From the IMG/VR virus record IMGVR_UViG_3300025030_000097, positions 1-64,000 of that record: DNA of 64,000 nt. The stretch is one strand, 5' to 3'. Position numbers and translations under genes: made by a program. Below, one piece after another: positions 2,294-64,000 of this stretch. Every line of letters starts with the position of its first letter. The stretch's first letter is position 1. Origin of the DNA: a virus. A model generated the notes under the pieces. The model was not told the origin of the DNA. It saw nothing but the letters and a program-made list of their open reading frames with translations, and ran no database searches.

Positions 2294-2617
2294 ATGAATA
2301 GAGAGAAATCCACTGTACCTGTCGTCCTCAAAGAGGGGTACTCCATAGCTCATAAAGCTGAAGGTGTTATGGCGGACAAAAAAGTTGAGGTCCTTCTAAA
2401 TTCTAAGCAGAACGAGATTGGGGAGGTGTATAATGACGATGATGGTAGGGGGTGGGGCTATTTTCATTACCTATTAGATAACGGAGGGGATTGGATTGAT
2501 AGTAGGGAACTGGCATTCAAAATGCTTACTGACGACCACGATGAATATGTCCACAACCTCAAGTACAAGATCAAGAAAATAAAGACGCTGAAAAAAGAGT
2601 TAGAAGACTACAAGTAA
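2294..2617 (+). CDS. Hypothetical protein
   Basis: A 107-residue acidic protein with AAGGAG before its ATG. The last 25 residues (HNLKYKIKKIKTLKKELEDY) are a predicted basic amphipathic or coiled helix. It has no recognised domain and precedes the tRNA nucleotidyltransferase gene by 38 bases. Confidence 0.6.
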   Translation: MNREKSTVPVVLKEGYSIAHKAEGVMADKKVEVLLNSKQNEIGEVYNDDDGRGWGYFHYLLDNGGDWIDSRELAFKMLTDDHDEYVHNLKYKIKKIKTLKKELEDYK

Positions 2618-2655
2618 TGCTAGAGGTGCTGATAAACAAACTAAAGGAGACTAAA

Positions 2656-4020
2656 ATGTCCACAAAAGCACTTGAAATATGCCTAGAAGTTCACAAACAA
2701 AATGGAACTGCCTACATAACCGGAGGGGCTGTTAGAGATTTGCTTTTAGGACGGCCTTGTAAGGATGTAGACCTTGAAGTGTTCGGAATTTCTCAGGAAA
2801 CTCTGGAGACTATTTTGAACTCTGTCTGTTCTAAAGTAGATCTTGTAGGTAAATCTTACGGAATTTACAAGGCAGATGGTATTGACGTTGGATTCCCTCG
2901 TAGAGATATGACTCACGGAAAAGGGGCTGATGTAGAAATAGACCCTTACATGTCAGTCGAAGAAGCTGCTTTGCGAAGAGATCTGACGATAAACGCAATG
3001 TACTTCAACCCGATAACTATGGAGATAATTGATCCTTTTGGTGGGCAGAAGGATTTACGTTATGAAATAGTTAGGATGGTTTCTCCTCACACATTTAACG
3101 AAGACCCTTTACGTCCGGTACGGGCTGCTAGGTTCTGCGCTGTTTTGGGGTATTTTCCAGAATCAAGTACGGTAATGGCTTGTCGAAAAGCTGATAGAGA
3201 TAAAATCCACAACTTGCCCAAAGAACGCATTTTCTGGGAACTCGAAAAAGTACTGATGGAAGCTGACGCTACTTCAATATTCTTTGAAGAACTTGATGAA
3301 ATGGAGTTGACTGAAATTCTGTTTCCTGAGTTGCATTTGTCCAAGCAAATAGAACAAGGCAAGTGCTACCACCCGGAAGGCTCAGTTTACGCACATTCAC
3401 TCTTAGCCCTTAACATTCTGCCTATCAAAGAAAGATCCTTAGAAATTATGCTAGCAACTCTATTTCACGACCTCGGTAAAGCATCTGTAGAAACCGAGGT
3501 AAACGGCGATAAAATTAGTTTTAAAGGTCACGCTGAAGACCTTACCCTAGCTACCTCAGCAATGGCTAGGCTGACTGATGAGAAAGAGTTGACCGAAAGC
3601 GTGCTCAACCTAATCAAACACCACATGCACCCTTACCAGTTCAAGAACGGAGTAACTAAGAGGCAAATCAGGAGGTTAGCCTCTAAAGTTGATGTTAGAA
3701 AGCTTATGAAAGTTCACAAAGCAGACCGCGAAGGCAGAGGATATTCAGAGGAGAATCATAGTCATGCCCAAAGAAACGCTGAAGTTGCTGATAAAATTAT
3801 GGCCGTATTTGAAGAGATTGAGGGAGAAATCGCGCCTATTATGCAAGGCAGACACCTCATCGAAGCAGGGTGGATTCCAGGAAAGCATTTCGGCTACATT
3901 CTTGCGCAGCTTTACGAGTACCAGTTAGACGGCGAATTGGTTGATGTTGCTAGTGGTTTGAAATTGGCTCATACGTTGTTTGGCGGAGTGAAAAAATCTA
4001 CAGTTGTTAAAGGAGCCTGA
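2656..4020 (+). CDS. cca: CCA-adding tRNA nucleotidyltransferase with HD domain
   Basis: A 454-residue class II nucleotidyltransferase that adds or repairs the 3' CCA of tRNAs. The head has GGAVRDLLLG (residues 23-32) and the metal-binding pair D37/D39 (KDVDLEVFG), followed by RRDLTINAM and a neck domain containing RPVRAARF. Near residue 270 an HD phosphohydrolase motif (LFHDLGK) with downstream GHAED and HHMH resembles bacterial Cca enzymes that carry HD domains. The start is at 2656, where AAAGGAG precedes the ATG; ORF extension to 2617 lacks a site. Length is normal for the family. Poly(A) polymerase activity cannot be excluded from sequence. With RtcB and GluRS it suggests tRNA upkeep during infection. 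Confidence 0.9.
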   Translation: MSTKALEICLEVHKQNGTAYITGGAVRDLLLGRPCKDVDLEVFGISQETLETILNSVCSKVDLVGKSYGIYKADGIDVGFPRRDMTHGKGADVEIDPYMSVEEAALRRDLTINAMYFNPITMEIIDPFGGQKDLRYEIVRMVSPHTFNEDPLRPVRAARFCAVLGYFPESSTVMACRKADRDKIHNLPKERIFWELEKVLMEADATSIFFEELDEMELTEILFPELHLSKQIEQGKCYHPEGSVYAHSLLALNILPIKERSLEIMLATLFHDLGKASVETEVNGDKISFKGHAEDLTLATSAMARLTDEKELTESVLNLIKHHMHPYQFKNGVTKRQIRRLASKVDVRKLMKVHKADREGRGYSEENHSHAQRNAEVADKIMAVFEEIEGEIAPIMQGRHLIEAGWIPGKHFGYILAQLYEYQLDGELVDVASGLKLAHTLFGGVKKSTVVKGA

Positions 4021-27053: not shown

Positions 27054-28670
27054 ATGAAAACTAATTTTAAAGTTCCTGCTACGTTGATCTGTGATTTCTA
27101 CAAAATTTCTCACAGAGCACAATACCCAGTTAAAACTGAAAAGGTCTATAGCACATGGATTCCTAGGACCAGCAGAATTACTTTCGTAGACAAAGTTGCT
27201 GCCTTTGGGTTCCAGGCATTCATCAAAAAGTATCTTATCGAATACTTTAACGACAACTTCTTCAGCCGCCCTTTGGAGGATGTGGTAGACGAGTATAGCA
27301 GGGTAGTTAAGTACTGCCTCGGAGATAATAATCCAGACACCTCTCACATTGAAGCACTTCACTCTTTAGGTTATCTTCCGATTCTTATTAAAGCAGTTCC
27401 TGAAGGCACTTTAGTTCCTGTTCGGGTGCCTATGCTGACCATTGAAAATACCCACGAAGACTTTGGGTGGCTTACCAACTACCTAGAGACTATCGCTTCC
27501 TGTGAACTTTGGCAGAGTGCTACGAGTGCAACCCTAGCTCTTGAGTACAGGAAAATTTTGGATAAGTATGCCACGTTGACCTCTGACATTCCTGAGTTTG
27601 TTGACTTCCAAGGGCACGATTTCTCTATGCGAGGGATGAGTTCTTTGGAGTCTGCTATAACTTCTGGTATGGGGCATTTGCTGTCTTTTGCAGGAACCGA
27701 CACAATCCCTGCTATTTTGGGACTTGAAAATTACTACAACGCTAATATTGAAAATGAACTTGTGGGTTGTTCAGTCCCGGCGACCGAACACAGCATAGCT
27801 TCATGTGGCGGTTCTAGTTCTTTAGAAGAGGAAGCTACTTTTAGGCGTTTGATTACAGAAGTCCACCCTTCGGGTATCGTCTCTTTGGTTTCTGATACAT
27901 GGGACCTTTGGAATGTCCTTACAAATATCCTGCCGAATCTTAAAGAAGTTATTAATGCTAGAGACGGCAAAGTAGTTATCCGACCTGACTCTGGTGATCC
28001 TGTAGATATCATTTGTGGTGTGTCTTACTCTGAGGTTTTTGACTTGGATGACGATAGCCTGATGGGTTCTCCTGATCGCGTTGTTAAATGTCTGGAAGAT
28101 GGAAAATTTTATAAGATAACTTCCTACGATACTGGTTGGACTACTAAATTTGAATGTAAAGAAATTTCTGAGGCTTCTGTGAAGGGGGTCGTAGAACTGC
28201 TTTATGAAACCTTCGGAGGGACTGTTAATAGCAAAGGGTTTATCCAATTAAGTGATAAAGTGGGGGCTATTTACGGAGACTCTATCACACTTGAGAGGGC
28301 AGAAAATATTTGTAATCGTCTCATGGATAAAGGATTTGCCTCTACCAACATTGTGCTAGGCATTGGGTCGTACACTTACCAGTATAACACTAGGGACACT
28401 TTCGGGTTCGCTATGAAAGCTACTCATTGTGTTATTAATGGAGTTGAGAAAAATATATTTAAAGATCCGATCACAGATGATGGAACTAAAAAATCTCTTA
28501 CTGGACGTTGTGTTGTACGAAACATTGACGGAGTGTTGGTAGCTACTGATGGTCTGTCTGAATTAGAAGAATACGCGGCGCTTGATAACGTGCTTCAGCC
28601 TATTTTCTGCAACGGAGTTTTGTTGGTAGAAACTTCACTTAAAGAAATCAGAGAGCGAATCAAACAATGA
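27054..28670 (+). CDS. nadV: Nicotinamide phosphoribosyltransferase-like protein (NAMPT/NadV)
   Basis: A 538-residue protein close to full-length NAMPT. Visible segments are ICDFYKISHRAQYP, FQGHDFSMRGMSS, SFAGTDTIPAI, SVPATEHSIASCGG, SLVSDTWDLWNVL, VVIRPDSGDPV, GAIYGDSITLERA, and FGFAMKATHCVINGVEKNIFKDPITD. NAMPT joins nicotinamide to PRPP to make NMN. Paired with the Prs-like protein it gives either NMN salvage or, if the pair uses ADP-ribose pyrophosphate, direct NAD+ synthesis. I see no NMN adenylyltransferase in the window. It is followed by two EQSH paralogs. Confidence 0.9.
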   Translation: MKTNFKVPATLICDFYKISHRAQYPVKTEKVYSTWIPRTSRITFVDKVAAFGFQAFIKKYLIEYFNDNFFSRPLEDVVDEYSRVVKYCLGDNNPDTSHIEALHSLGYLPILIKAVPEGTLVPVRVPMLTIENTHEDFGWLTNYLETIASCELWQSATSATLALEYRKILDKYATLTSDIPEFVDFQGHDFSMRGMSSLESAITSGMGHLLSFAGTDTIPAILGLENYYNANIENELVGCSVPATEHSIASCGGSSSLEEEATFRRLITEVHPSGIVSLVSDTWDLWNVLTNILPNLKEVINARDGKVVIRPDSGDPVDIICGVSYSEVFDLDDDSLMGSPDRVVKCLEDGKFYKITSYDTGWTTKFECKEISEASVKGVVELLYETFGGTVNSKGFIQLSDKVGAIYGDSITLERAENICNRLMDKGFASTNIVLGIGSYTYQYNTRDTFGFAMKATHCVINGVEKNIFKDPITDDGTKKSLTGRCVVRNIDGVLVATDGLSELEEYAALDNVLQPIFCNGVLLVETSLKEIRERIKQ

Positions 28671-29414: not shown

Positions 29415-30518
29415 ATGTCGATTTTAGATAAATTTGCTTCACTTATCCCGCTTGAAGATGTAGAAGAGGGCGCTAAACAACAGATTTACAACATCCTGAA
29501 ACTTGATTGTTTAAAGAAACTTGCATTGATGCCAGATGCCCACCAAGGTTATGATATGCCCATTGGCGGGGTGGCTTTGCTGGATGGATTTATCTCAGCT
29601 AGCTTTGTCGGACTTGATTTGGGCTGCGGCGTATGCCATATAGCTACTGAAGAAGGTGCAGAAGACTACTCAAAAGATGATTTACAACACATTTACAAGA
29701 CTATCCACAAGACTATACCGACAGGATTTTCTTCACATTATCACTCTAAAGATTATCTTCCTAAGTTCAAGTCTGCGGTTCTTGATAAACAGACCACCGA
29801 CAGAATAGCCGAGAAGGTTGACTTTCAGTTAGGAACGTTAGGCGGTGGGAACCACTTCATAGAAATCGGAAGTAACAGAAAAGGCAACCTAGCAGTAACT
29901 ATCCACTCTGGTTCTAGGAATGTGGGGCATACTATCGGCGGGGCTTATATGAAGATGGGCCGTATGTTTGAACTTTCTTCGGAACTAGGTCAATCCTACC
30001 TGAGAGATATGAACTACGCTCTTGACTGGGCTTTGGAAAACAGAATGCAAATGATGCGGAAGGTTTTAGAAGCTGTTGGGATTAGTAATAAAAATATAAC
30101 GGTAGTTTTGAAGGACGTTATAAATGAGAACCACAACCACGCTGTAGTTACTTCTGAAGGTGTTTTGCATCGTAAGGGAGCTACTCCTGCTGATTTGGGC
30201 CAACTTGGTATTATTCCAGCTAACATGAGAGACGGAGTTTATATTACTAGAGGTTTAGGTAATACCGAATTTTTGTCATCAGCTAGTCACGGTTGCGGAA
30301 GACTTATGGGAAGGAACGTAGCTAAGAAATCTCTAGACTACGATGAATTCGTAACTCAGATGGAAGGTATTGTATGTTCTACTGACAGAAGCATTTTAGA
30401 TGAGGCTCCAAATGCCTATAAAGATGTTAACTATGTGCTTGATGCTCAAGTCGGTAGAACTGTAGAAGTTGTTGATTTCATTAAGCCTTTGCTAAATATT
30501 AAAGCAGGAGGAGACTAA
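29415..30518 (+). CDS. rtcB: RtcB-type RNA ligase
   Basis: A 367-residue RtcB homologue that joins 2',3'-cyclic phosphate (or 3'-phosphate) and 5'-OH RNA ends with GTP and Mn. Visible motifs: MPDAHQGYDMPIGG, GLDLGCGVC (metal-binding Asp/Cys), LGTLGGGNHFIEIG, VTIHSGSRNVGH, NHNHAV, and near the C-terminus SASHGCGRLMGR, where the His is the expected guanylylation site. Length matches short bacterial RtcB forms. In a phage it fits repair of tRNAs cut by host anticodon nucleases. It has EQSH paralogs on both sides. Confidence 0.92.
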   Translation: MSILDKFASLIPLEDVEEGAKQQIYNILKLDCLKKLALMPDAHQGYDMPIGGVALLDGFISASFVGLDLGCGVCHIATEEGAEDYSKDDLQHIYKTIHKTIPTGFSSHYHSKDYLPKFKSAVLDKQTTDRIAEKVDFQLGTLGGGNHFIEIGSNRKGNLAVTIHSGSRNVGHTIGGAYMKMGRMFELSSELGQSYLRDMNYALDWALENRMQMMRKVLEAVGISNKNITVVLKDVINENHNHAVVTSEGVLHRKGATPADLGQLGIIPANMRDGVYITRGLGNTEFLSSASHGCGRLMGRNVAKKSLDYDEFVTQMEGIVCSTDRSILDEAPNAYKDVNYVLDAQVGRTVEVVDFIKPLLNIKAGGD

Positions 30519-35031: not shown

Positions 35032-35054
35032 AATTGGGTTTGGTGTGCTATAGT
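35025..35054 (+). promoter_or_regulatory. Candidate rightward promoter from the inverted repeat
   Basis: TTGACA (35025-35030) and TATAGT (35049-35054), spacer 18. It would read antisense through the GIY-YIG gene towards the DnaB-like helicase gene. Perfect -35, good -10; function unproven. Confidence 0.4.
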
Positions 35055-36370
35055 GGATTATTGGTTGTGTTGTTTTGTCGGTTTCTTACTACATGCCCAT
35101 TACGTCTGACTGCATCTACGACAACACCCCCTCCGACATTGAAATCCTTGGAGATAGATAAAGCCGATTCTCCTGCCAAGTACCTCGTCACAGCAACGGC
35201 TTCTTGTTCCTTAGTTAGTGCAAATTTACACATAAGCGGGCGCATAGGTGTGTTCTTTTTGGCTAAAATTACATGCACAGAGGAGGATGATATACCAAAC
35301 TTAGCAGCTATGCTCTCTGCATTGGCCCCTTCTAGGTATAATTTAACAATTTCATCGCCGTATAAGTCTATTAATTTTGGCTTAGGTTCTTTCTTGGGTT
35401 TTGGTGTGCACTCAGGTCTGCCATATACGTCATATAGGTAGTTACGAACCCTTTTAGCATTTAGTCGCAATAAGTCGCCAATAGCTCCTGCGGTAAGTCC
35501 TTCGGTATATTTTGTTCGAATTTGACTTAGTAACTGCTCGTCCCAATTGTGATCGCGAATAATTCCACGTGACCTTAGAAGTTTTGCTGTAGCTGCTTTA
35601 GGCACTTTGTACTTTCGTACGATAGCTTCAACTGACATACGATTTTCGTAATCTTTTATGATATTTTCTTTATTGTGCTCAAGGCGTTTATCACAAGCTC
35701 TAAGTCTTTTAGCTCCTTTCAGAATACTGCTGACTCTGGATTGGTTTACTTTAGTATGGGTTGATATTTCTTTTCTAGACATACCGCCATCGTGTAAAGT
35801 TTTAATGTAATTTATTGTTTCGTCTGGTATAGCACTATAAAATGAGTTTGATCGAGGCTGAATTCCCTCACGGTCTAAAATGTTTCGCACAGTTTTGTGA
35901 GACACTTTATATTTTTTACCTAGAGTAACCGTAGAGGCTCCATTTAGATATTCTTTAACTATTTCAAGTTCGTCTTCAGGAGAGTATTTGTGAGGCTTCA
36001 GCTTCCCTCCAGCGCCTCCATGGTGTACATTTAGAAGTGGGTTACTTTTGTCTATTATCTTCCTTCCGATACTCTTTATTGCCTTAGTCTCTAATAGGTA
36101 AGCTTCATCTTCGGGCATATTGTCTTTCAATTTAATTATATAATCTCTTAGATCGAAGCCACTATCAATGATTTTCAGTATTAGCTTGTGCTTGGCTGTC
36201 TTATTTTTATTCTTAGCCTCAGAAATATGATTGTACATTCTGATCTTACTGCCCTTTCCGACATAAAATGGTTCATACTCTGTAACTAGACCTATATCTG
36301 GATACACAAAATTTCCTTCCACCAGCGGATTGAGGTACACATAAATATAGAAATTACGTTTTTGTTTCAT
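35048..36370 (-). CDS. GIY-YIG homing endonuclease with HTH repeats
   Basis: A 440-residue protein on the opposite strand. The N-terminal about 100 residues form a GIY-YIG nuclease domain (FYIYVYLNP...PFYVGKGSKIRMYNH...ETKAIKSIG). It is followed by a run of at least four short helix-turn-helix repeats (for example SRKEISTHTKVNQSRVSSILKG; AESIAAKFGISSSSVHVIL) for DNA recognition. This matches phage-borne free-standing SegA-like endonucleases. It sits between the accessory block and the helicase gene, interrupting the rightward order. Confidence 0.85.
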   Translation of the reverse strand: MKQKRNFYIYVYLNPLVEGNFVYPDIGLVTEYEPFYVGKGSKIRMYNHISEAKNKNKTAKHKLILKIIDSGFDLRDYIIKLKDNMPEDEAYLLETKAIKSIGRKIIDKSNPLLNVHHGGAGGKLKPHKYSPEDELEIVKEYLNGASTVTLGKKYKVSHKTVRNILDREGIQPRSNSFYSAIPDETINYIKTLHDGGMSRKEISTHTKVNQSRVSSILKGAKRLRACDKRLEHNKENIIKDYENRMSVEAIVRKYKVPKAATAKLLRSRGIIRDHNWDEQLLSQIRTKYTEGLTAGAIGDLLRLNAKRVRNYLYDVYGRPECTPKPKKEPKPKLIDLYGDEIVKLYLEGANAESIAAKFGISSSSVHVILAKKNTPMRPLMCKFALTKEQEAVAVTRYLAGESALSISKDFNVGGGVVVDAVRRNGHVVRNRQNNTTNNPL

Positions 36371-58453: not shown

Positions 58454-58465
58454 TAAGTGTCACTA

Positions 58466-58497
58466 AAAGGGGTGGGTCAAACTGCCCCTTTAATTTT
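58466..58497 (+). terminator. Terminator-like hairpin before nrdD
   Basis: AAAGGGG (58466-58472) pairs with CCCCTTT (58485-58491), the stem extending inward by wobble pairs, followed by AATTTT. It could end transcripts of the ClpP-like gene or act as a leader element of nrdD. Confidence 0.55.
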
Positions 58498-58522
58498 AAC
58501 TTTAGCAAAGGGAGTTTTAAAA

Positions 58523-60442
58523 ATGTATATCCACACTAGTTACGACAGAGAGTTTGTAGACCTGATGATGTACCTAAAAACTAAGTACGGACAGAAGTTG
58601 TTTGATTTGGAAGGTATTGGCAAACAACTTGATATGTGCAAATTCTCTAAGGATTTTTTCTCAGCTACTACTACGGCAGATGCCAGTGTAGACGCAAATG
58701 CCAACGTCACAGACACTTCCAATATTGCTTACGGTATTGAACTTCCAAAACCATTTTTCAAGCTCAATAGTTATTTTATGTTGTGGAAACACATGCGCAA
58801 GCTATATGGTATGGAAGTTGCTAACTCTACTGTAGAACGTCAGCTTACGGGGGACGTATACATCAATGATTTTCATGGAATCGCTGCTGGAAGTCCCTAC
58901 TGTTTCAACTACAGTACTTATGATATCATGCTTCTCGGATTGCCTATGGTAGATAAGATTAAATCAGTAGCCCCTAAATACCTGTACAGCTTTAAGAGTC
59001 AGCTTGAGCAGTTTGTTGTAATTGCTTCTAACTCTACTTTAGGTGCTGCTGGACTGGCAGATCTTCTGATTGTAATGAGCTACTATGTCAAAAACATTCT
59101 GGACACTAAATCAGATGCTGGATTTTCTTTCAAGGATGAGGCGGCTTGTTGGAACTATGTTAAAGAAACTTTGGTGAGTTTCATATACACTATTAATCAG
59201 CCAATGAGAGGCAATCAGTCACCATTCACTAACGTATCTATTTATGATTCAGAATTTTTGAACTCACTCTGCCCACAGTACGTATTCCCTGACGGCAGCA
59301 CTCCAGATATATACTTAGTTCAGCGGATTCAGGAACTCTTCTTGGATGTTATGAATACAGAAATGAGGCGCACTCCTGTGACTTTCCCAATTACCACAGC
59401 TTGCTTCTCTGTAAACGACGATAAGAAAATTACGGACGAAGCATTCATTGAGTTCATCGCTGAAAAGAACACAGAGTTTGGCTTTATCAATATGTACATA
59501 GGTAAGAGTTCGACACTCTCAAGTTGCTGTCGCCTCCGAAGTGATACAGATAATGAGTACTTCAATAGTTTTGGTTCTGGTAGCTCTAAAATTGGTTCAT
59601 TGGGTGTGACTACAATTAACCTCCCAAGGCTTGCTTTTAAGACTGTGGAGTTTTCCAAAGAGCCAACAGAGCAGGGAGCCTATTTCTGGAGTGAGCTTAA
59701 AGAGTTGGTAGGGGTTGCTGCGAGAGTTAACCACACTAAACGAAATATAGTAAAGAGCAGGATAGACAGTAATAACCTGCCACTGTACTCCTTGGGGTTC
59801 ATGGAGCTGTCTAAGCAATATTCTACGTTAGGAGTGAATGGACTTAACGAGTGTCTAGAAATTTTAGGGCTTAACATTTTGGCAAGTGACGGACAAGAAT
59901 TTGTTGTTCGAATACTTGAGGCTATAAACTCTGAAAATGATAAATTCCAAAAGGCTTACAAAACTCCCCATAACTGCGAGCAAATTCCAGGAGAAAATGT
60001 CTCTATTAAACTTGCAGATAAAGATAGATTTATGGGGTATAACGACAGGTACGAACTTTACAGCAATCAGTTTATACCCCTCACAACTAAAGCTGACCTG
60101 CTAGACCGTATTCATCTTCAAGGGTTGTTTGACAGTCATTTTTCGGGTGGCGCTATTTGCCACTTGAACATTGAAGAGAAGGTGGAGGACACTGAGAAAG
60201 TAGTAGAACTTATCAAGATGTGTGCAGAGAAGGGTGTTATTTATTTTGCCTTAAACTACAATCTGCAACGTTGTTCTGAAGGTCACATGTCTGTAGGTAA
60301 GAAGGAAACTTGTGGAGTATGCGGCGGGGAAGTGACAGACAATTATACAAGGGTTGTTGGATTCCTGACCAATGTAAAGAACTGGCATAAAGTAAGGCGC
60401 GAGCAAGATTACCCTGAAAGACAGTTTTATAAGGAGGCTTAG
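58523..60442 (+). CDS. nrdD: Anaerobic (class III) ribonucleoside-triphosphate reductase
   Basis: A 639-residue enzyme that makes dNTPs from NTPs with a glycyl radical. The ATG at 58523 has GGGAG 8 bases upstream; the ORF extension to 58457 runs through the hairpin and is rejected. The C-terminal zinc site uses CSEGH and CGVCGG, and the glycyl radical motif RVVGF is present (G613). The core has SCCRLRS near the active-site region. Length is close to other phage NrdDs. The activase gene follows 7 bases later. It needs oxygen-free conditions. Confidence 0.92.
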   Translation: MYIHTSYDREFVDLMMYLKTKYGQKLFDLEGIGKQLDMCKFSKDFFSATTTADASVDANANVTDTSNIAYGIELPKPFFKLNSYFMLWKHMRKLYGMEVANSTVERQLTGDVYINDFHGIAAGSPYCFNYSTYDIMLLGLPMVDKIKSVAPKYLYSFKSQLEQFVVIASNSTLGAAGLADLLIVMSYYVKNILDTKSDAGFSFKDEAACWNYVKETLVSFIYTINQPMRGNQSPFTNVSIYDSEFLNSLCPQYVFPDGSTPDIYLVQRIQELFLDVMNTEMRRTPVTFPITTACFSVNDDKKITDEAFIEFIAEKNTEFGFINMYIGKSSTLSSCCRLRSDTDNEYFNSFGSGSSKIGSLGVTTINLPRLAFKTVEFSKEPTEQGAYFWSELKELVGVAARVNHTKRNIVKSRIDSNNLPLYSLGFMELSKQYSTLGVNGLNECLEILGLNILASDGQEFVVRILEAINSENDKFQKAYKTPHNCEQIPGENVSIKLADKDRFMGYNDRYELYSNQFIPLTTKADLLDRIHLQGLFDSHFSGGAICHLNIEEKVEDTEKVVELIKMCAEKGVIYFALNYNLQRCSEGHMSVGKKETCGVCGGEVTDNYTRVVGFLTNVKNWHKVRREQDYPERQFYKEA

Positions 60443-60913: not shown

Positions 60914-60947
60914 AAAAGCCCCTACAAATTATCTTGTAGGGGCTTTT
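60914..60947. terminator. Strong bidirectional terminator
   Basis: AAAAGCCCCTACAA and TTGTAGGGGCTTTT form a 14-bp perfect stem with a 6-base loop, giving U-tracts on both strands. It separates the rightward nrdDG block from the leftward lipase block. Confidence 0.92.
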
Positions 60948-60975: not shown

Positions 60976-60985
60976 GGTAATTACC
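60976..60985. promoter_or_regulatory. GGTAATTACC dyad, copy 14
   Basis: Perfect palindrome in AATAGGTAATTACCTAAAT, abutting the stop codon of the leftward lipase gene. It is the only exact copy that is not upstream of a rightward gene start. Confidence 0.75.
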
Positions 60986-61581
60986 TAAATCATCGTAAGG
61001 CCACTAAAATTCTTAACCACAAACTTGTTATAGTAGCTAATAGAATGATCCTTAACATCGAATAGCTCCTCTTCACTATCTGCATCGGAAATACCTAATC
61101 CCACACACTTATGTTCATAAAACAGCTTAGGAATAGAAGCCACCGGATCATCACTCATGTAAATTCTAACGTGATCTACAGAGGACTCGAAAGACCAGTA
61201 TTTAAAGTACACTCTAGGCGCCCCGAAGGTAACGCAACCAACTCCTAGCTTTTCAGCGAACAAAGTAGCAACAGCGCCGCCTAAAGAATGACCAGTAAAG
61301 ATTACCTTCCGGTTGTCTCCCAGCTCCTTTAGAATCTTAGGGCTAAGTTTATTAAAAGCTCTGACGAAGCCCCACGTGCTAAAGAAACTTCCAAACTTCC
61401 AAGGGATAACGTTAATGTCCCTAGCAGCATTTCTAACATTTGAGGTTCCTCTTATAGATACTAAAGTTAAGTCTGCTAAATGTGTAATGGAATAACCCAA
61501 GTCTTTGACCTCAGTACAATTGTCATAGACCTCTTCAGATAGTTTGCCACACAGTTTTATCAGTTCGTTTGTAATTGGCAT
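60985..61581 (-). CDS. Class 3 lipase-like alpha/beta hydrolase
   Basis: A 198-residue alpha/beta hydrolase. The nucleophile elbow is FTGHSLGGA. SIRGTSN supplies an oxyanion region, DDPVAS the catalytic Asp and DHSISYY the His, as in class 3 lipases. No signal peptide is visible. It lies with the endolysin and glycosyltransferase, so it might help dissolve the host envelope or be carried on the particle; this is inference from neighbours. Confidence 0.82.
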   Translation of the reverse strand: MPITNELIKLCGKLSEEVYDNCTEVKDLGYSITHLADLTLVSIRGTSNVRNAARDINVIPWKFGSFFSTWGFVRAFNKLSPKILKELGDNRKVIFTGHSLGGAVATLFAEKLGVGCVTFGAPRVYFKYWSFESSVDHVRIYMSDDPVASIPKLFYEHKCVGLGISDADSEEELFDVKDHSISYYNKFVVKNFSGLTMI

Positions 61582-61592
61582 TTGTGGTTTCC

Positions 61593-62039
61593 TTACTTGT
61601 CTTCAGTAGGCCATCTGTAAGCAACTACTTCGTAACTCCCCAGACCAAAACTAGATACCTTAACTTGGTCGCTCTGGTTCCCACCCAAAAGATATATCCT
61701 ACCACCTTCAATCTTCTTGAAAAACCCGACATGATTACCTGATGCAGAGCCAGTAGCCTTATCCCCGCCTTTAAACTTCTGGCGTATTACTGTAATAGCA
61801 CCCGCCTTCGGCTGGTCAAGTTTAGTACCCCATTTTATAAATGATGCTGCGGCTGCGCTGTTAGTTCCTTTAATACCAGCCGATTTAAGGCACCAATTAA
61901 CGAAGGAGGCACACCACGGAATTTCATCTTCCTTTGCTGCTAGAGAAGTGGCAGAGTGGTATTCTATAATTCTTTTATTTTCCCCACCCCTGACTTCCCT
62001 AACGCCCATTTCCTTTTCAGCAATTTCCATCCATTTCAT
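61593..62039 (-). CDS. Endolysin-like peptidoglycan hydrolase (CHAP/NlpC-like, TIGR02594 type)
   Basis: A 148-residue protein. IPWCASFVNWCLKSAGIKGTNSAAAASFIKWG is the TIGR02594 signature with the catalytic Cys in PWC, and GNHVGFF supplies the His. The family cleaves peptidoglycan peptides. It has no membrane segment or binding domain, so it may need a holin from elsewhere or act as a virion-associated lysin. Confidence 0.8.
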   Translation of the reverse strand: MKWMEIAEKEMGVREVRGGENKRIIEYHSATSLAAKEDEIPWCASFVNWCLKSAGIKGTNSAAAASFIKWGTKLDQPKAGAITVIRQKFKGGDKATGSASGNHVGFFKKIEGGRIYLLGGNQSDQVKVSSFGLGSYEVVAYRWPTEDK

Positions 62040-62048
62040 TTAATCCTC

Positions 62049-63713
62049 CTAAAATAATCCCAACTCTTTATACTCGCCCCAATAATTATCTTCGCTACTA
62101 CAGTCCTTGCTGTAAAGGTCACAGTGGTTTGTAAAGTTCTTTCCGTGATTGATATGAACTGAAGAATTAATACAATGCCAAGGATTCCTTACTAAATCAG
62201 GTTCCAACATTACCTGACCTCTTAGCAAAGCCTCTTTAACTTTACTCTCAAAATGACCTATAGCATCACTAAAAAGCATAGTCATCTGGTGCAAAGGAAT
62301 AGAGTCATGCACGTGCTCATAGCTCTGAAAGCCCTCAGAACAGACACCTTTTAAGTTTGTATTATAAATTGTCCCGCTAGCAAAGTCAGGGTAATTGAAA
62401 TAGCCCTCTGGGTAAAGTACGTCATGCTCTAAGAAGCTGACATATTTATAAGACCCCGTAGCCTCCGCTCGATAAAGCAACTGAAGAATCTGCAAAGTAA
62501 TGTTCAGATGGTTGCTACTCTGGGTCTGTGCTATGAGTTCTGGGAAAGGATTATTTTCAATAGTCTTCCAAGTGCTCGTAAGTATATCTGCTTTGCCCTT
62601 AGATACCTTCTCCAAATTACCTAAAACATTACTCACAACATTATCGTCATTGTTATTTGTATAGAATATGCCAAGTCTGTTACAAGTGCCTTCTGGGATA
62701 ATTAGATAACCACCTTCAGGAATTACTTTAGAGTACTCAACGTCATCCAGTTTGTACTTAACCGATAGGTGCTTTAGTATGCCTTCTTGGGGGTCCCAGC
62801 CTGCTAAGTTATTATTCACGCAGACATTAAGACCACTGCCCCTAACTAACCGGTTAAGATTAGCTGTTACGTTAGCCCCACCATATGATGCTTCTATAAT
62901 CTCTAATTTCACATCCTTATCCTTTGTGGCAGTTATTTGAGCAGCTATTGAGTTAACCCTATCAGCGCCGAAATGTTCTTTTATCGGAGCTAAGTCAAGG
63001 CCTAGTTCATTAAAACCTATAATATAATTCCTTATCCTATCGTCATAGATCATAGGATAAGGTATATCTCCCATGCCCGTTTTGAATAGATGCACCCAAG
63101 AAAGGAACGGAAGGCAGAGAGTTCTATGCCCTGCCTTTCTATACTTACTGTGAATATAACCCTCTTCCCCGCCAAAGCCTGCAAAGTCTGGGTTAAATCC
63201 TAGCCAAGCATCCTTCCTGCAAGCAAATAGCCCAAGCCCCTGCATAGGAATTTCGTAGGGTTCTGAGTTAGGGTCTATTGAAGCAGCTCGCCAAGTCCCC
63301 CACATACCACCCGCCCACTCGTCATTGAAAGCGTCTGCATAATTAACCAGATCGTCATACCTCAACGGACCTTGCAGAAGATCTTTACAGTCAGGATTTT
63401 TAGAAGTCCAATCTTTAAAGCTAGCCATAGCACCTTCTGTGAGTAAAACATGAGTGTCAATGCACATAACCCAGTCACCTAGAGCCTCTCTAAATACAAG
63501 GTCTCTAGGTGCTGAAGTTCCTGTTTTTTCTGTGTAAAGGATGTAGCGAGTTCCGTGGGTACCGTCTATAAAACTCTTTAGACGTTTATCCCCATAGTTA
63601 TCTATCACTAAAATCTCAGTGTCTGTCGTATCCTGATACATTAGCAGAGACTGGATCGTGAACCATACTTCGGTAAAATTGTTATAACTCGCCATTCCTA
63701 TAGTTAGTTTCAT
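62049..63713 (-). CDS. Two-domain glycosyltransferase
   Basis: A 554-residue protein. Residues about 1-250 form a GT2/GT-A fold (TIGMASYNNFTEVWFTIQSLL; ILVIDNYG; GDWVMCIDTHVLL with DxH at the DxD position; GFGGEEGYIHSKYRKAGH). Residues about 380-554 look like a second sugar- or nucleotide-sugar-using domain (KYVSFLEHDVLYPEGYF). The start overlaps the stop of the Thr-rich gene as ATGA, a tight functional hint. The likely substrate is a phage surface protein or cell-wall sugar; this is inferred. Confidence 0.78.
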   Translation of the reverse strand: MKLTIGMASYNNFTEVWFTIQSLLMYQDTTDTEILVIDNYGDKRLKSFIDGTHGTRYILYTEKTGTSAPRDLVFREALGDWVMCIDTHVLLTEGAMASFKDWTSKNPDCKDLLQGPLRYDDLVNYADAFNDEWAGGMWGTWRAASIDPNSEPYEIPMQGLGLFACRKDAWLGFNPDFAGFGGEEGYIHSKYRKAGHRTLCLPFLSWVHLFKTGMGDIPYPMIYDDRIRNYIIGFNELGLDLAPIKEHFGADRVNSIAAQITATKDKDVKLEIIEASYGGANVTANLNRLVRGSGLNVCVNNNLAGWDPQEGILKHLSVKYKLDDVEYSKVIPEGGYLIIPEGTCNRLGIFYTNNNDDNVVSNVLGNLEKVSKGKADILTSTWKTIENNPFPELIAQTQSSNHLNITLQILQLLYRAEATGSYKYVSFLEHDVLYPEGYFNYPDFASGTIYNTNLKGVCSEGFQSYEHVHDSIPLHQMTMLFSDAIGHFESKVKEALLRGQVMLEPDLVRNPWHCINSSVHINHGKNFTNHCDLYSKDCSSEDNYWGEYKELGLF

Positions 63714-64000
63714 ATTAGACTCTTAGTTCCTACGCTTGTTTTAATTCTCACAGGTCCATCATTTGAGTATAGCGCAAATGATAGGATGCCGCTTGAAGTT
63801 TTAATTCTCAAAGGCCCGTTTTCAGATGTTTGAATAGGTACTTTGGTTGCCCCTGCAAGTAATGTTATAAACGGTATGAAAGGTGCTGCTGTTGTAGTCG
63901 TCGGTTGAGCAGTTGTGGTTGCTTGTATGGTTGTAGTTGTCGGTTGAGCAGTTGTAGTCGGGATTGACGTAGTTGTGGTAGCCGCCAAAGTCGTTGTAGG
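63710..64000 (-). CDS. Thr-rich mucin-like protein, partial at the window edge
   Basis: The reading frame is open to the window end, so the protein is partial (97 codons shown; N-terminus missing). It carries stretches of TTTT with AQP and IP spacers, then a hydrophobic stretch (AAPFIPFITLLAGATKV) and two repeats of GP(L/V)RIKTS(S/V)G at the C-terminus. Such Thr-rich sequence is typical of phage tail fibre or decoration proteins. It abuts a glycosyltransferase gene. Confidence 0.65.
   Translation of the reverse strand, partial: PTTTLAATTTTSIPTTTAQPTTTTIQATTTAQPTTTTAAPFIPFITLLAGATKVPIQTSENGPLRIKTSSGILSFALYSNDGPVRIKTSVGTKSLI

Follow-up and report, generated by a model that had tools for sequence, protein, structure and literature searches.

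A probable virion O-glycosylation cassette pairing a Thr-rich tail-fibre-like protein with a GalNAc-transferase-like enzyme

Within a 64,000-nucleotide (nt) stretch of viral DNA, referred to here as the window (positions 1 to 64,000 of IMG/VR record IMGVR_UViG_3300025030_000097), the gene of a Thr-rich, tail-fibre-like protein overlaps that of a two-domain glycosyltransferase (GT). Our computational analysis indicates that this locus, which closes a tail gene block, is probably a cassette for virion O-glycosylation, with the GT acting on the Thr-rich linker of the fibre. What is directly established comprises the genes, their recurrent adjacency, their folds at the level of models and, in relatives, their place among tail genes. 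A preliminary description of the window had proposed a functional coupling of both proteins; this coupling is now well supported by the recurrent upstream position of Thr-rich genes, the mucin-type fold of the modelled GT and the tail location in relatives, which make it much stronger than adjacency in one genome.

The Thr-rich gene and its complete relatives

All genes of the locus lie on the reverse strand. The 3' part of the Thr-rich gene spans positions 63,710 to 64,000, its open reading frame (ORF) being still open at the window end, and the GT gene (554 amino acids; 62,049 to 63,713) starts at its stop codon. Sequence reading places this stop/start overlap, already noticed in the preliminary description, at the ATGA of 63,710 to 63,713, with the GT ATG at 63,713-63,711 and the TGA of the Thr-rich frame at 63,712-63,710. 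An identical 4-nt overlap occurs in two close relatives from one metagenome, L003 and L004, which encode GTs 95% and 92% identical to that of the window. The preliminary description had suggested looking beyond position 64,000 for the rest of the Thr-rich gene; the full record (64,293 bases) supplied 293 more bases but not the 5' end. As a result, 193 amino acids of the protein are readable in the record, the extra bases encoding an immunoglobulin (Ig)-like-looking stretch N-terminal of the Thr tract.

The tract itself (63,881 to 64,000 in the window, reaching ~64,072 in the full record) comprises 64 residues with 37 Thr and is followed by a conserved C-terminal module (63,713 to 63,880; ...GPLRIKTSSGIL...GPVRIKTSVGTKSLI) common to L003, L004, L052, L124, and L109, where it stands behind differing N-terminal parts; searching with this module alone confirmed just L003 among 32 stretches. 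The Thr-rich frame is the sole gene among the 100 gene calls of the window that reaches at least 40% Thr over 30 residues. All four Thr codons are used in the tract (13 ACT, 13 ACA, 7 ACG, and 7 ACC), which therefore looks maintained at the protein level and not as a DNA microsatellite. Codons were also mixed in most of 24 Thr-rich proteins checked (entropy 1.27-1.98 bits), the exception being that of L089, with long runs of a single Thr codon. Matches to the Pfam families Mucin and New_glue were low-complexity and below cut-off, and we did not use them as evidence.

The complete Thr-rich protein is 412 amino acids long in L003, a 105-kb relative, and 735 in L004. The former consists of a GDSL/SGNH hydrolase (PF13472, 4.9e-17), an Ig-like-looking stretch, a Thr linker and the conserved C-terminal module, whereas the latter has a different N-terminal part with no Pfam match. 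BLASTP found only the C-terminal modules alike (76% over 58 residues), each preceded by a Thr linker, which suggests that the GT is kept constant while the adhesin or enzyme part before the linker is exchanged. Gene order in L003 runs from a central-tail-fibre-like (J-like) protein through a tail protein, a Thr-linker fibre, the SGNH-Thr protein and the GT to a lysin and a lipase, and L004 matches it by sequence. The Thr-rich partner, itself devoid of PHROG matches in L003 or L004, thus sits in both at a tail-module position with tail-type neighbours.

Predicted folds of the glycosyltransferase and proposed mechanism

Pfam Glycos_transf_2 (PF00535) matched the GT at residues 5-98 only (1.2e-08; 35.5 bits vs. 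a cut-off of 23.3), and did so in 36 of 36 family members at an E-value of at most 0.1, with GT7C appearing weakly in 6 of the 36. Three related records, possibly fragments, each contain no PF00535 match other than this GT. In an AlphaFold model built with 44 family sequences (mean pLDDT 80), domain 1 (residues 1-264; 62,922 to 63,713) was predicted with ten-residue blocks at pLDDT 84-98, one exception being at 59, and its fold was closest to polypeptide N-acetylgalactosamine (GalNAc)-transferases. Among the best 50 rows of each search, Foldseek ranks 1-44 were all polypeptide GalNAc-transferases and VIA ranks 1-29 all GT27 (Z 24.2-20.1 over 238-255 residues, root-mean-square deviation (rmsd) ~3 A, model residues 1-264); the next well-superposed GT-A enzymes among the matches listed had Z ~18. 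Rows of K4CP (Z 18.6-19.1) were discarded as poor superpositions with an rmsd near 21.

A metal-binding DxH motif is the hallmark of GT27 polypeptide GalNAc-transferases, and alignment of the family located a DxH, putatively metal-binding, at D86-T-H88 (63,450 to 63,458). All 117 aligned members (out of 122 non-duplicate ones, five being too short) have D86, H88, and H208. The GGEEGYIH-type motif at residues 181-188 (63,150 to 63,173) owes its invariance to selection, since it was used to find the family; the distance between its GGE and the late His, E183/H208 here, agrees with E334/H359 of GalNAc-T2.

The two-domain character assigned preliminarily to the GT was borne out by AlphaFold and VIA, which returned two GT-A folds at residues 1-264 and ~343-551. 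When residues 266-554 were folded alone with 34 aligned sequences (pLDDT 91), the second domain (62,061 to 62,687, with a FLEHDVLYP motif at 62,409-62,435) was predicted to resemble GT2 enzymes (Z ~14), among them teichoic-acid GTs such as TarP. Similarity of the small beta module in between (~residues 270-340; 62,694 to 62,906) to SUEL/L-rhamnose-binding lectin repeats is suggestive of a lectin role, with a whole-chain E of 2.7e-13 summed over three repeats and weak values for single repeats (0.003-0.075); PF02140 was matched by 2 of 34 members and DnaJ-like_C11_C by 7 of 34, the window's member matching neither. GT27 enzymes usually carry a C-terminal ricin-type lectin domain, a match to which was absent from Pfam scans of the GT. 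In L044, L095, and L122, a methyltransferase-like domain is fused to the GalNAc-T-like domain (by Pfam in L122 and weakly in L044, by eye in L095); second GTs and methyltransferases, fused to the GT or encoded nearby in relatives, give the impression that the glycan is extended and methyl-capped.

From these genes and models we infer catalysis, acceptor, donor sugar, coupled translation and benefit. The upstream gene would encode a modular tail fibre or spike with parts joined by a Thr-rich mucin-like linker, and the translationally coupled GT would glycosylate the linker Thr residues in the host cytoplasm, the stop-start overlap keeping acceptor and enzyme together. Domain 1, shaped as a GalNAc-transferase, would attach the first sugar, and domain 2, as a second GT-A enzyme, would most likely extend the glycan, perhaps with help from the intervening lectin-like module. 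The glycosylated linker may then serve as a stiff, protease-resistant stalk or shield.

Thr-rich genes around the glycosyltransferase families

Because a single-protein search gave two close records only, we scanned the viral collection with a degenerate DNA pattern of GGEEGYIHxK(F/Y)R, which yielded at least 120 stretches; the counts therefore describe this sample and not the family. We analysed 119 loci, leaving out seven duplicates (L001, L002, which is the window, L066, and L125-L128) together with L017 and L103, whose GT matched no gene call, and scored a gene as Thr-rich when 30 residues of its product contained 40% Thr or more. Among the matches listed, such genes were found upstream of the GT in 39 of 107 loci at position -1, 10 of 81 at -2 and 3 of 72 at -3, and downstream in 1 of 111 at +1, 2 of 101 at +2 and 2 of 94 at +3 (Fisher p 3e-13 for -1 vs. 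+1, uncorrected for relatedness). Control loci, 25 viral ones picked by an arbitrary 15-mer, contained a single Thr-rich gene in 277, and dereplication at 60% identity left 11 of 24 representatives with one at -1 (p 8e-13 vs. 1/277).

A conserved nuclease-like gene occupies -1 in 39 of the 107 loci (assigned by a motif in that gene, one of which was checked by Pfam); these loci stand together in tree order, and in none of them is a Thr-rich gene next to the GT. In the other 68, a Thr-rich gene lies at -1 in 39 and within -1 to -3 in 43, and the -1 proportion after dereplication at 90, 70, and 60% GT identity is 29/53, 18/38, and 11/22, respectively. They form a second branch of the GT family, L016 (4,331-6,237, reverse strand) and 38 similar loci, in which the gene beside the GT has a Cys-rich end and, in L016, resembles PD-(D/E)XK nucleases; the substrate of these GTs probably differs.

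The Thr-rich partners are diverse. They include hydrolases in L003 and L052, a protein of L119 with a tail-spike PHROG match (7e-6) and a Pfam beta-helix match below cut-off, and a capsid protein (PF25209, phrog_4523) of L151, a Halorhodospira prophage-like contig, which bears a C-terminal Thr tail directly before the GT. By eye, those of L124 and L102 have an alpha-galactosidase-type look with no Pfam or PHROG match, and the Thr-rich proteins of L113, L115, and L004 matched neither database. Two C-terminal signatures, written post hoc after viewing the sequences and counted over loci that include several near-duplicates, accompany these genes: a C..C-N/K-x-L-x-F/Y tag, matched by 25 of 1512 genes (24 at -1 relative to the GT and one at -2), goes with one-domain GTs, and an I-x-TS-x-G-V-K-x-L module, present in the window and in five further genes at -1, with two-domain GTs.

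The reverse test, a poly-Thr scan (eight Thr codons) yielding at least 120 stretches, identified a genuine Thr-rich ORF in 81 of 118 new loci, and it supplies several of the points that weigh against a glycosylation cassette. Only 10 of the 62 viral loci with a +1 gene have one of three GT profiles there, all of the phrog_4417 type discussed below (0 of 69 at -1), and the window's GalNAc-T-like family appears at +1 in 0 of 62; the remaining 52 have none of these GTs at +1, and Thr-rich viral proteins are therefore more frequent than adjacent GTs of these kinds. When 80 further genes downstream in poly-Thr loci (same strand, 100-900 amino acids, +1 to +3; best 25 of 28 families) were scanned with Pfam, Gly_transf_sug, Caps_synth, and TcdA_TcdB each matched one member. 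Within the GT family, no Thr-rich gene lies at -1 in 29 of the 68 non-nuclease loci, or at -1 to -3 in 25 of them, and 64 bacterial loci showed such a gene in 8 of 54 at -1 and 4 of 54 at +1, the control loci being viral. The window copy of the Thr-rich gene is, moreover, incomplete at its 5' end. Finally, the likeness to GalNAc-transferases is one of predicted structures: a 36-member profile retrieved no GT27 chain from the PDB at an E of at most 1, its best matches being GT2 enzymes (TarP, chondroitin synthase, and others). With a GalNAc-T-like fold and a GT2-like sequence, the enzyme is therefore described here as one that would work like a GalNAc-T, and is not filed in GT27.

The 52 poly-Thr loci, together with the family GTs that have no Thr-rich gene upstream, are what would be expected if the GT acted on another virion protein or on a folded adhesin domain and the Thr tract were merely a flexible linker nearby. 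We nonetheless regard such a substrate as unlikely, given that Thr-rich genes are rare in the control and yet accumulate at -1 and not at +1, that the tracts precede domains as different as a hydrolase, a beta-helix-like protein and a capsid protein, and that the closest fold is that of enzymes acting on Ser/Thr of mucin peptides.

As a separate observation, the bacterial contigs L187, L136, and L147 encode GalNAc-T-like GTs with Thr/Pro-rich proteins as neighbours; by eye, some of these show what seems to be a Tat-type signal, together with PqqD- or HprK-like fusions or adjacent genes. They may be a cellular counterpart of the phage cassette.

The domain-2 motif was present in 87 viral stretches (duplicates L259, on the same contig as L004, and L066, on that of L003, were excluded from the domain-2 and bacterial tallies). 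Thr-rich genes occurred upstream of domain 2 in 6 of 80 loci at -1, 18 of 75 at -2, 13 of 70 at -3 and 8 of 49 at -5, and downstream at 0 of 417 positions from +1 to +8. Of the stand-alone domain-2 genes, 22 of 25 with a phrog_4417-type gene upstream were preceded by a Thr-rich gene (-1 to -4), vs. 2 of 42 without, this type being defined by an FYHD(C/S)D motif at -1 to -3 and scored with PHROGs in L221 and L222 only. The Thr-rich partner of L221 is a major tail protein by PHROGs. The phrog_4417-type family has an invariant DxD, but the members tried had no Pfam, NCBIfam or PDB match, and their GT activity is therefore putative.

A phrog_4417-type protein also occurs in 74 cultured phage records, in two of which it is named 'prophage pi2 protein 34'. 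Fourteen of these phages were chosen to span genera, including phages of Lactobacillus, Enterococcus, and Staphylococcus, and in 12 of them a Thr tract, defined by 13 or more Thr in 20 residues, lies no more than 1.5 kb upstream of the phrog_4417-type gene, in several cases on a head or tail protein or just after one; 521B is weaker (0.45) and bIL285 has none, the same measure downstream being 0.15-0.45. In PT1-4, one of the 12, another annotated gene separates the tract from the phrog_4417-type gene, and in phiFL1A the tract forms the end of the annotated major tail protein; the stop codon there overlaps the next gene. Searching 50,697 phage records (Che8 included) by tblastn with the window GT and three family members produced no match at an E of at most 1e-5, nor did domain 2 have relatives in cultured phages at this threshold.

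Several of the cultured phages carry the Thr tail out of frame. In Enterococcus phage 9183 (L301:3,780-3,900), it lies in the -1 frame just past the annotated capsid gene end, at C CCA AAA; in nattely (L306), the -1 frame is again used, after the corresponding gene, which is annotated as hypothetical; and in L305, L307, and L312, from Staphylococcus (SA2, RQ1) and Arcanobacterium phages, it follows the ...CCC TAA of the major tail gene in the +1 frame. In all five, the tail precedes the phrog_4417-type gene. This arrangement looks like programmed frameshifting, which would add the tail to some subunits, so that only part of them would be mucin-like.

Taken jointly, these families could mean that tailed phages own a mucin-type O-glycosylation pathway, with a GalNAc-T-like start on poly-Thr linkers or tails of virion proteins, extension and capping by a second GT-A enzyme and sometimes a methyltransferase, a short C-terminal tag that marks the acceptor for its own enzyme and frameshifted Thr tails in some cultured phages, and that this pathway is independent of or older than the animal system. 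We advance this broader proposal tentatively, holding it plausible but somewhat short of probable.

Alternative roles, known systems and neighbouring genes

The GT might instead modify a host surface polysaccharide, for receptor masking or superinfection exclusion, or phage DNA, both being roles that PMC12619734 and PMC2884959 mention for phage GTs, and the fold of domain 2 is indeed like that of teichoic-acid GTs, e.g. TarP. However, the enzyme has no membrane-like segment (maximum 19-residue hydropathy 1.03), its gene lies where the tail block ends and overlaps one for a fibre-like protein, and the GT recurs with a Thr-rich neighbour, all of which renders a host-glycan or DNA target quite improbable. 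A serotype-like exchange of fibre and GT as one module with no enzymatic link would accommodate pre-linker parts that differ between L003 and L004 beside GTs 95% and 92% identical to the window's, yet hitch-hiking explains neither the Thr-rich partner, nor the preference for -1 over +1, nor the C-terminal tag, and we give it hardly any credence.

Glycosylation of the fibre linker by the GT, the reading that we favour, has partial precedents. According to PMC12619734 and PMC12363180, GTs of mycobacteriophages Che8, Corndog, and Myrna glycosylate structural proteins (Freeman et al. 2023), with glycans at the C-termini of capsid and tail-tube subunits; PMC10955285 cites the same work, and PMC2884959 discusses a GT2 of phage Tweety for DNA or wall modification. 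The window locus shares with mycobacteriophage virion glycosylation a phage-encoded GT and, as genomic linkage suggests, a putative structural-protein target. Here, however, modification seems to be aimed at the Thr-rich linker of a tail fibre, by an enzyme with a predicted GalNAc-T-like fold. Among the papers listed in our searches of open-licence PMC literature, no title or abstract opening described a Thr-rich phage fibre paired with a GT or a GalNAc-T-like phage enzyme. Virion glycosylation by phage GTs is thus known, and the GalNAc-T-like enzyme and the Thr-linker substrate look new.

Similarity to animal GT27 enzymes extends to the predicted fold over the whole catalytic domain, DxH instead of DxD and a Thr-rich, Pro-containing neighbour protein; unlike them, the GT has no sequence-profile match, contains a second GT-A domain and a possible SUEL-like module, and belongs to a prokaryotic virus. 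With phrog_4417-type systems it has in common the upstream Thr tract and, in metagenome phages, a stand-alone domain-2 partner, but the window GT is of a different family, the phrog_4417 type having DxD and no solved relative found. Streptococcal serine-rich repeat (SRR) adhesins are Ser/Thr-rich glycoproteins with dedicated cytoplasmic GTs and accessory Sec export. A dedicated GT gene beside a low-complexity Ser/Thr-rich surface protein is common to both systems, whereas SRR adhesins are cellular proteins exported by accessory Sec and those described here are virion-type; we rejected accessory-Sec glycosylation of the streptococcal type on account of this different export setting.

ORF coordinates and Pfam agree with the leftward block outlined in the preliminary description, in which a lysin and a lipase lie close to the Thr-rich/GT pair on the same strand. 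The lysin (148 amino acids; 61,593 to 62,039) is a CHAP-domain protein of the TIGR02594 family (Pfam CHAP 3.1e-08) with tail-hub lysozyme as its best PHROG match and endolysin families next, and the lipase (198 amino acids; 60,985 to 61,581) is a class-3 lipase or alpha-beta hydrolase (Pfam Lipase_3 3.6e-14). L003 and L004 keep the lipase; the lysin is of CHAP type in the window and, by sequence, in L004, and VanY/M15-like in L003, where an NCBIfam vanXY match was weak and below cut-off. Lipase and lysin probably form a lysis module with which the tail operon ends. An inverted repeat recognised by eye at 60,914 to 60,947 (AAAAGCCCCTACAA...TTGTAGGGGCTTTT), which the scan did not flag, is a possible shared terminator of two converging gene blocks. 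Promoter and terminator scans gave no more matches than shuffled sequences, and no tRNA was found. Genes were called by a simple longest-ORF rule, and small genes and start sites are therefore uncertain.

Elsewhere, the NrdD homologue of L003 (11,750-14,749, reverse strand) harbours an intein-like insertion (CFTGDQKV...ITHNC) that the window NrdD (58,457-60,442) lacks. A window protein with HTH/HNH-type PHROG matches, encoded at 35,048-36,370 on the reverse strand within the rightward replication block, is possibly a free-standing homing endonuclease. The window also encodes a nicotinamide phosphoribosyltransferase for NAD salvage (27,054-28,670), an RtcB-type RNA ligase (29,415-30,518) and a tRNA nucleotidyltransferase (2,617-4,020), an NAD and tRNA repair set that may serve counter-defence.

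The recurrence of the Thr-rich/GT pairing in many viruses suggests that these phages produce sugar-coated fibres of their own. If this is correct, many uncultured and several cultured phages would coat fibres, tails or capsids with sugars by means of their own enzymes, which would explain the puzzling poly-Thr tracts of virion proteins and provide a function for 'hypothetical' genes such as phrog_4417. It would also offer a source of simple, soluble prokaryotic O-glycosyltransferases and bear on the evolution of mucin-type glycosylation.

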